A DNA stretch of 56,031 nucleotides from Archaeoglobi archaeon (GTDB lineage: Archaea > Halobacteriota > Archaeoglobi > Archaeoglobales > Archaeoglobaceae): NCBI GenBank assembly GCA_029259415.1, contig JAPDIW010000033.1, positions 1 through 56,031 of the forward strand, read 5' to 3'. Below are positions 53,177-56,011 of this stretch, one piece after another. A model generated the notes under the pieces. That model worked only from the letters and a program-made list of their open reading frames with translations, had not been told where the DNA came from and did not search any database. How positions within the stretch are numbered: position 1 is the stretch's first letter; each line of letters opens with the position of its first letter. A program made the position numbers and the translations under genes.

Positions 53177-53200
53177 TTTTTCCATTTTGTTTTGGTAACA
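53177..53200 (+). terminator. T-rich tract after serA
   Basis: Directly after the serA stop the coding strand has runs TTTTTCC, TTTTG and TTTTGG. Such T-rich tracts promote intrinsic termination in archaea. The following convergent MBL gene ends at 53213, so this tract separates two opposing transcripts. Confidence 0.4.
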
Positions 53201-53212
53201 ACAGTGAGCAGT

Positions 53213-54126: not shown

Positions 54127-54155
54127 TTAGATTCCCAGAACCTTAGATTCCCAGA
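54127..54155. repeat. 13-bp direct repeat at the cooS stop codon
   Basis: TTAGATTCCCAGA occurs at 54127-54139 and again at 54143-54155, with a 16-base period. The second copy contains the last codons and the TAA of cooS. The first lies just past it. A simple duplication at the gene end is the likely origin. Confidence 0.8.
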
Positions 54156-56011
54156 GCCCTTCTCTTCTCAACGATTACTTTCTCCAGCAGCTCAGCGGCC
54201 TTTACCGGGTCATCTTCAACCAGAACTTTTCCACCAGTAAGCTTTTCCACATCCTCGGTGTAAAGCTTCACAGCATCTTCACTGCCGGTTATTGGTGGAG
54301 CTGGAGAGACATGGGTTGTAAGGCCGTAGGCAACGGCAAACACGGCATCTATTGTTGCCTTCTGCTCCATGTACTCTGGAGCCGTAACCGCTATCGGAAG
54401 CTGCGGAATGTCCACCCCTAATGCATCAGCAATCAGCCTGACGAGATAGGCAGCCCTTCCCGTGTCTGTGCAAGTACCGAAGCTCAGCACCGGCGGGATG
54501 TTCAGTGCCTTGCATACAGCCTTCAGCTTCTCTCCTGCAAGCTCTACAGCTTCCATTGACGTCAGCCCTGCAACCTGCAAAGCAGCATTGCCGCAGCCCA
54601 TCGAAAGGACGAGTATATCCCTCTTTATCAGCTCTTTGGTAATCGTAACCGTGCTGGTATCGTGAGGGCCGTTCTTCAGCGTTGTGCAGCTAACAAGGGC
54701 TGCTACACCTTTAATGTCACCTTTCTTGATGGCGTCAAGCAGAACGTTCAGGTCTCCGTTCAGGGCTTTGAGAATCGCCTCTGGAGAGAAGCCGACAACT
54801 ATTTTCTTCTTCTGCTCCACTTTTACAGCCTTGCTCTTGTCTCTCTGCTTGAAGTTCTCTATTGCCATTTCAATCAGCTTCTGCGCGATCTCCTCGGCTT
54901 TCTCAGGCTCGTAGTCAAGTCCCTCGTCTATCCCTCTGAACCTCACGAGTTCGCTCACAGGTACAATTTTGACACCGTAGCGCTGGTATTCTGGCAGGGA
55001 TGGAAGAGCGCAGTTCATGTCGGCTGCGAAAACGTCGACGCATCCTGTTGCAAGTGCATACTCCTGCACAATCCAGTTTCCGACAATTCCGGCAAAAACA
55101 GGACTGTCAACGCGCTGGATAATTTCCTGACCAGTCTCTATGAATCCAATTATCCTCAGCCCCTTGGCTCCTGCAGTCCTCGCTTTCTCCTGAACCTCTT
55201 CCTTCTCAGCGAGCTTGATTAAGGCGATACCGATGAATGGCTCATGACCATCGACGGCAATGTTCACATACTCCGGGTCGAGGATTCCGAGGTCAGCGTA
55301 GCTCTCGTGCGGCATTGGTGTGCCGAAGAGGATGTCTTGGATTGTTTCAAGAGCTATCTGCGCAGCCATGCAGGTGGCAATACCCATTGCCATGCTTTTC
55401 TTGGCTAAAGAAACGTAGTTCGTGTCCACATTTGTCATCGCAGACGCTCCCATGGTCAAAATCTCCTGAAACACACCTGCCGGGAATATTCCAAGCTTCT
55501 CCCACAATTCCTTTCTCTGCTTGGGTGCAAATATTTCCACGAGCTTGCTTCTTTCGACAGAGCTCAGGTCGGAAATGACGAAATCTGCCACCTTCTTTGC
55601 AAGGTCATTCACGTCTTCTCCTTCAATTCCGAGCTGCTCTGCAAACCACTTCAGCTTCTCGACATCCTTAATCTCGTAAATAGTCTTGCCTTCAGCTGTC
55701 GCCTTGAGTGTTTTCGCAGCTTCAATCGCATGGTAGGTGTAAGCTTCAGTTCCAAGCATATTCTTGTGAGTGAAGTTCCTCACAACCATGCCGGCGGCAT
55801 CAATACCACAAGCTCCAGTAGGCTTGTCCTTTCCAATTCTGCATGGACCCATGCTGCAAAGCTGGCAGCTCAGACCAGCACTGCAGAAGGGACACCTACC
55901 CTTCTCCTGCGCGTTGAATCTATCTACAATGTTCGTTACGCCTTCTTTGCTGACTTTCTCGTACATCTTATTTATGCTCTCATGCTCACTAACCTTTCCC
56001 TCAATCTTCAT
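54143..56011 (-). CDS. cooS: CooS-type carbon monoxide dehydrogenase with altered cluster ligands
   Basis: Monofunctional CODH/hybrid cluster superfamily protein, 622 residues, the homodimeric CooS length. By alignment in my head with Carboxydothermus CooS, C-cluster ligands are His256 (VDGHEP), Cys334 (DMNC), Cys442 (VSCTT), Cys473 (MGCGN), Cys514 (FGTCTD), with Lys551 near APEYMEQK. The position of the ligand Cys295 (GICCTGNE in classic enzymes) reads GFIETGQE, giving Glu292. The N-terminal B-cluster cysteines are Cys49, Cys52, Cys57 and Cys68. The second D-cluster cysteine is Ser48, but a Cys43 is nearby. The histidine relay near residues 93-102 of CooS is mostly missing. No CooF, CooC or hydrogenase gene follows. 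The start is ATG 56011. Confidence 0.88.
   Translation of the reverse strand: MKIEGKVSEHESINKMYEKVSKEGVTNIVDRFNAQEKGRCPFCSAGLSCQLCSMGPCRIGKDKPTGACGIDAAGMVVRNFTHKNMLGTEAYTYHAIEAAKTLKATAEGKTIYEIKDVEKLKWFAEQLGIEGEDVNDLAKKVADFVISDLSSVERSKLVEIFAPKQRKELWEKLGIFPAGVFQEILTMGASAMTNVDTNYVSLAKKSMAMGIATCMAAQIALETIQDILFGTPMPHESYADLGILDPEYVNIAVDGHEPFIGIALIKLAEKEEVQEKARTAGAKGLRIIGFIETGQEIIQRVDSPVFAGIVGNWIVQEYALATGCVDVFAADMNCALPSLPEYQRYGVKIVPVSELVRFRGIDEGLDYEPEKAEEIAQKLIEMAIENFKQRDKSKAVKVEQKKKIVVGFSPEAILKALNGDLNVLLDAIKKGDIKGVAALVSCTTLKNGPHDTSTVTITKELIKRDILVLSMGCGNAALQVAGLTSMEAVELAGEKLKAVCKALNIPPVLSFGTCTDTGRAAYLVRLIADALGVDIPQLPIAVTAPEYMEQKATIDAVFAVAYGLTTHVSPAPPITGSEDAVKLYTEDVEKLTGGKVLVEDDPVKAAELLEKVIVEKRRALGI

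Follow-up and report, generated by a model that had tools for sequence, protein, structure and literature searches.

Inoue et al. (2019) defined structural group D-1 within clade D of the carbon monoxide dehydrogenases (CODHs), marked by a type III D-cluster, the replacement of the first C-cluster Cys by Glu, a Tyr at the His position, and a retained Lys (PMC6344411). Its members also carry a Glu of the hybrid cluster protein (Hcp) type two residues before the Lys, and Hcp-like properties were predicted for them; the same study mentions genetic hints that the D-1 proteins of M. acetivorans may take part in CO oxidation (PMC6344411). Jeoung et al. (2022) crystallised a D-1 protein, CooS-V of Carboxydothermus hydrogenoformans (PDB codes 7B7Q, 7B7T, 7B95, 7B97, and 7B9A), which has the same Cys-to-Glu change and holds a Ni-free [4Fe-3S-nO] hybrid cluster that restructures reversibly with the redox state, as well as a [2Fe-2S] D-cluster between the subunits (PMC9311411). 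CooS-V displayed no detectable CO oxidation and no CO2 reduction, it reduced hydroxylamine slowly (kcat 0.13 per second) and NO not above background, and its midpoint potentials are ~300 mV more negative than in E. coli Hcp (PMC9311411). With so slow a hydroxylamine turnover and NO reduction at background level, detoxification is no more than a possible role for CooS-V. The C295E variant of CODH-II was Ni-deficient, did not oxidise CO, and showed slightly raised hydroxylamine reduction (PMC9311411; also PMC6344411), and C295A was likewise without Ni and CO activity (PMC9311411). Regulatory roles have been proposed for clade D, in which the A. fulgidus CooS has been placed (PMC13056359), and the cooS gene of that species (AF1849) did not respond to CO (Hocking et al., PMC4543118).

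Family membership and active-site residues

The window analysed here is a complete Archaeoglobi contig of 56,031 bases, on which an earlier note had described a CODH-family protein with an altered C-cluster site (Table 1). The cooS open reading frame is intact and starts with ATG; its coordinates and all residue numbers given in that note are exact. The 622-residue product finds its best NCBIfam match in TIGR01702, the CODH equivalog of the CooS family (918 bits), and also matches Pfam Prismane (PF03063). Its best PDB sequence match is 7b7q (CooS-V; 702 bits, 53% identity), the next structure scoring 443 bits. Besides this protein, the only Prismane-family match in the query genome is a 792-aa frame of the CdhA type, and no Hcp scores above the curated cut-off. 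There is almost no chance that the protein is itself a true Hcp instead of a CooS-type protein: the ligand types are the same and the C-terminal part weakly matches the Hcp model TIGR01703, but the 39.1 bits of this match fall far under the 360.8-bit cut-off and the score of the CooS model, which refutes Hcp membership, and the protein shares 21% aligned identity with E. coli Hcp and groups with CooS-V in the tree described below.

Table 1. Features of the window, with positions, strand, and supporting evidence
Feature	Position	Strand	Evidence or remark
CooS-V-type (structural group D-1) CODH-scaffold protein, 622 aa	54143..56011	-	TIGR01702, PDB match, AlphaFold/Foldseek
Codons of Cys40 to Cys43 (CPFC), bridging type III D-cluster	55883..55894	-	Alignment; PMC9311411; PMC6344411
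Codon of Glu292, C-cluster Cys295 position	55136..55138	-	Column is Glu in CooS-V and 90/95 relatives, Cys in Ni-CODHs
Codon of Glu549, second hybrid-cluster Glu (CooS-V Glu556, Hcp Glu494)	54365..54367	-	In every Glu292 protein examined
Metallo-beta-lactamase (MBL)-fold protein, 291 aa	53213..54088	-	PF00753, 109.8 bits; directly downstream of cooS

We aligned the protein by MAFFT with CooS-V (7B7Q), Thermococcus CODH-2 (6T7J), the N. vulgaris CODH (6B6V), and 95 relatives. The motif GFIETGQE (residues 289–296) stands where the two aligned Ni-CODHs have GMCCTGNE and GLCCTGNE, with Glu292 in the column of Cys295, so the replacement of this C-cluster ligand claimed in the earlier note is borne out. 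His256, Cys334, Cys442, Cys473, Cys514, and Lys551, which the note had listed as retained, all align and are conserved in 95 of 95 relatives. Another Cys filling the Cys295 site is ruled out, as the alignment shows none, and with Glu292 the protein lacks the complete Ni-CODH C-cluster ligand set, which includes Cys295. The note had also likened Glu292 to the Glu of Hcp. Glu268 of E. coli Hcp does not stand opposite Glu292, the site falling in a gap in both the plain sequence and the profile alignment, and the equivalence comes instead from published structural comparisons.

Glu549 (in YMEQK), two residues before Lys551, was overlooked in the earlier note; typical Ni-CODHs have Ser, Thr, or Ala in this column. 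Asn333, Tyr91, and Cys40/Cys43 are further residues that it had left unmentioned. The type III D-cluster motif C-X2-C-X5-C is present as Cys40-X2-Cys43-X5-Cys49, with a Cys at the position of CooS-V Cys41. His94 corresponds to His96 of CODH-II, and the acid-base His93 position is occupied by Tyr91, which is a D-1 feature, as are Lys551 and the Glu two residues before it. We consider it very unlikely that the protein is a Ni-CODH which oxidises CO in spite of a Glu in place of Cys295. Such an enzyme would be in keeping with the TIGR01702 match to the CODH equivalog, with the retention of Lys551 and His94, and with the M. acetivorans genetics mentioned in PMC6344411; however, CODH-II C295E, CODH-II C295A, and CooS-V are all without Ni and CO activity (PMC9311411), the acid-base His93 is a Tyr in the query, and A. 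fulgidus cooS is not CO-induced (PMC4543118).

Conservation, phylogenetic position, and predicted fold

We searched 119 related genomes for the family and scanned species genomes, which together gave 109 loci with 95 distinct sequences. The Cys295 site is Glu in 90 of these and Cys in the other 5, in a sample whose species-genome part favours group D-1 because one peptide pattern used in the scan (APEYMEQK) contains Glu549. All 90 Glu relatives have Tyr91, Ile291, Glu549, and Lys551, and 89 have Cys43. The same Glu is found in a 93% identical copy from a complete genome, probably that of A. fulgidus; its recurrence in this copy and throughout the 90 relatives shows that Glu292 is neither chance nor a sequencing error.

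Among 20 further CooS-family matches, taken regardless of motif, the site is Glu in 5 (with the same marks), Cys in 14, and Asp in 1. The Asp protein (L127, G084:C3:80812-82862) has residues of the Tyr91, Asn333, and Glu549 type, falls outside the Glu branch of the tree described below, and is a possible further ligand variant. Three proteins (L129, L130, and L131) combine Cys295 with the Hcp-type Glu549 and Asn333, but have Gln for Lys551 (a clade C-like signature); hence, Glu549 is not strictly tied to Glu292. Two of the D-1 cooS copies (L034 and L036) come from a single isolate, S5B9_HD70.

We computed a quick maximum-likelihood tree of 71 proteins, without bootstrap and leaving out the six marker columns; in it, a single branch (SH-aLRT 100) sets apart all 48 Glu proteins, among them CooS-V and the query. 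The Hcp root of this tree is a very long branch and unreliable, and the direction of the change between Cys and Glu cannot be read off. An AlphaFold2 model of the query, built from a 35-sequence alignment and containing no metals, has a mean pLDDT of 91.8 and a pTM of 0.93. When this model was searched with Foldseek, the CooS-V structures 7b7q and 7b9a ranked first (E ~1e-68, TM 0.98, rmsd 1.3 Å), with the Ni-CODHs below them (E ~1e-55, TM ~0.95–0.96).

Neighbourhood of cooS

The contig ends 20 bp before the start codon of cooS, so the upstream neighbour is invisible and the absence of coo accessory genes, which the earlier note had taken as agreeing with its reading, carries little weight. 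The MBL-fold gene adjoins cooS only in the nearest Archaeoglobi, where it is followed by a gene for a Cys-rich-domain protein (PF02754, 334–346 aa) at the loci L035/L143, L036, L141, and L142. In the window this second gene is absent, and the gap from the MBL gene to serA measures 36 bp (53177–53212). The MBL gene beside cooS in L034 (8001-8826) appears truncated (a 148-aa frame, then other frames). Locus L004/L141, which is probably from A. fulgidus VC-16, very probably holds AF1849 as the 93% identical orthologue; it shares the downstream MBL-fold gene with the query and differs in having the Cys-rich-domain gene after it.

Two very near relatives (L034 and L035/L143, cooS 98–99% identical) have an HTH_10-type regulator gene upstream of and divergent from cooS. 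The protein (L034:5325-5921, L035:571-1173, and relatives) comprises ~200 aa with conserved cysteines and is possibly a redox or gas sensor; of 28 genome-contig loci that we checked, nine have a related gene directly upstream of cooS. No match to it was found in the query genome, where the contig ends at the place the gene would occupy and its absence is thus not established. We rejected the idea that a conserved operon hints at function, because the MBL and Cys-rich-domain genes adjoin cooS only in the closest Archaeoglobi and the HTH_10-type gene lies upstream at nine of these 28 loci but not in several other Archaeoglobi. It is unlikely, in our estimate, that the protein uses the same morphing cluster in a different role, as a redox or gas sensor or regulatory protein: the reversible restructuring and very slow turnover of CooS-V (PMC9311411), the regulatory roles proposed for clade D (PMC13056359), and the Cys-containing regulator directly upstream of some cooS genes would suit a sensor, but no output partner is known and in several other Archaeoglobi the regulator does not adjoin cooS.

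Proposed cofactor and comparison with known systems

In all likelihood, the query is an archaeal CooS-V orthologue (clade D, group D-1) with a Ni-free hybrid cluster, a small-molecule reductase and not a CO oxidiser. Its ligand set, phylogenetic position, and fold come from the present analysis. Sequence and fold match CooS-V best, all first-sphere hybrid-cluster ligands are present, and the Glu proteins share their branch even with the marker columns removed; the loss of Ni and CO oxidation in CODH-II C295E, the unresponsiveness of A. fulgidus cooS to CO, and the lack of an Hcp above the curated cut-off in the genome, although a CdhA-type CODH is present, all argue for the same reading. We counted against it the 53% identity to CooS-V, the very slow hydroxylamine turnover of CooS-V and its NO reduction at no more than background level, and the M. 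acetivorans hints (PMC6344411). The cluster type, the lack of CO activity, and the reductase direction would carry over from CooS-V, the closest characterised homologue, whose measured properties (PMC9311411) match the Hcp-like cluster and probable lack of CO oxidation suggested in the earlier note; by this analogy, that suggestion very probably holds for the query. The reading itself is already published, for D-1 in 2019 (PMC6344411) and with the CooS-V crystal in 2022 (PMC9311411).

On the CooS-V model, the homodimeric CODH scaffold would hold a [2Fe-2S] cluster between the subunits on Cys40/Cys43 and a [4Fe-4S] B-cluster on Cys49/52/57/68, while the former C-cluster site would bind a Ni-free [4Fe-3S-nO] cluster through His256, Glu292, Cys334, Cys442, Cys473, Cys514, and Glu549. 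Electrons would reach the hybrid cluster via the B and D clusters, and the reduced cluster, opening to substrate, may reduce a small nitrogen- or oxygen-based molecule instead of oxidising CO. It is a speculative and rather doubtful extension that the CooS-V-type protein took over the Hcp role in Archaeoglobus, as a low-potential nitrogen-oxide/peroxide reductase with genus-specific MBL-fold and Cys-rich-domain partners and, in several relatives, the Cys-containing HTH_10-type regulator.

The Archaeoglobus cooS gene is likely annotated automatically as carbon monoxide dehydrogenase; our analysis corrects this likely misannotation, and the gene should not count as CO-oxidation capacity. Beyond this correction, the finding repeats published work. 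Cultivable Archaeoglobus, which has a single D-1 gene in addition to CODHs of the CdhA type, would lend itself well to work on the physiological substrate.

Hcp and the query have the same ligand types (His, Glu, four Cys, Glu, and Lys), but differ in sequence (21% identity), in the B-cluster motif, and in family by HMM score. With group D-1 the query shares the type III D-cluster, the H-E-C-C-C-C ligand row, the Tyr, and the Lys, and we found no difference from the tabulated features (PMC6344411). The likeness to CooS-V extends to fold, length, all active-site ligands, the Glu at the Cys295 site, the second Glu, the Cys of the [2Fe-2S] D-cluster, and the Tyr for His93, whereas the query is archaeal, 53% identical, and known from its sequence, the cluster having been measured in CooS-V. 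The protein is an ordinary archaeal member of the already described D-1 side branch that the crystallised CooS-V represents.
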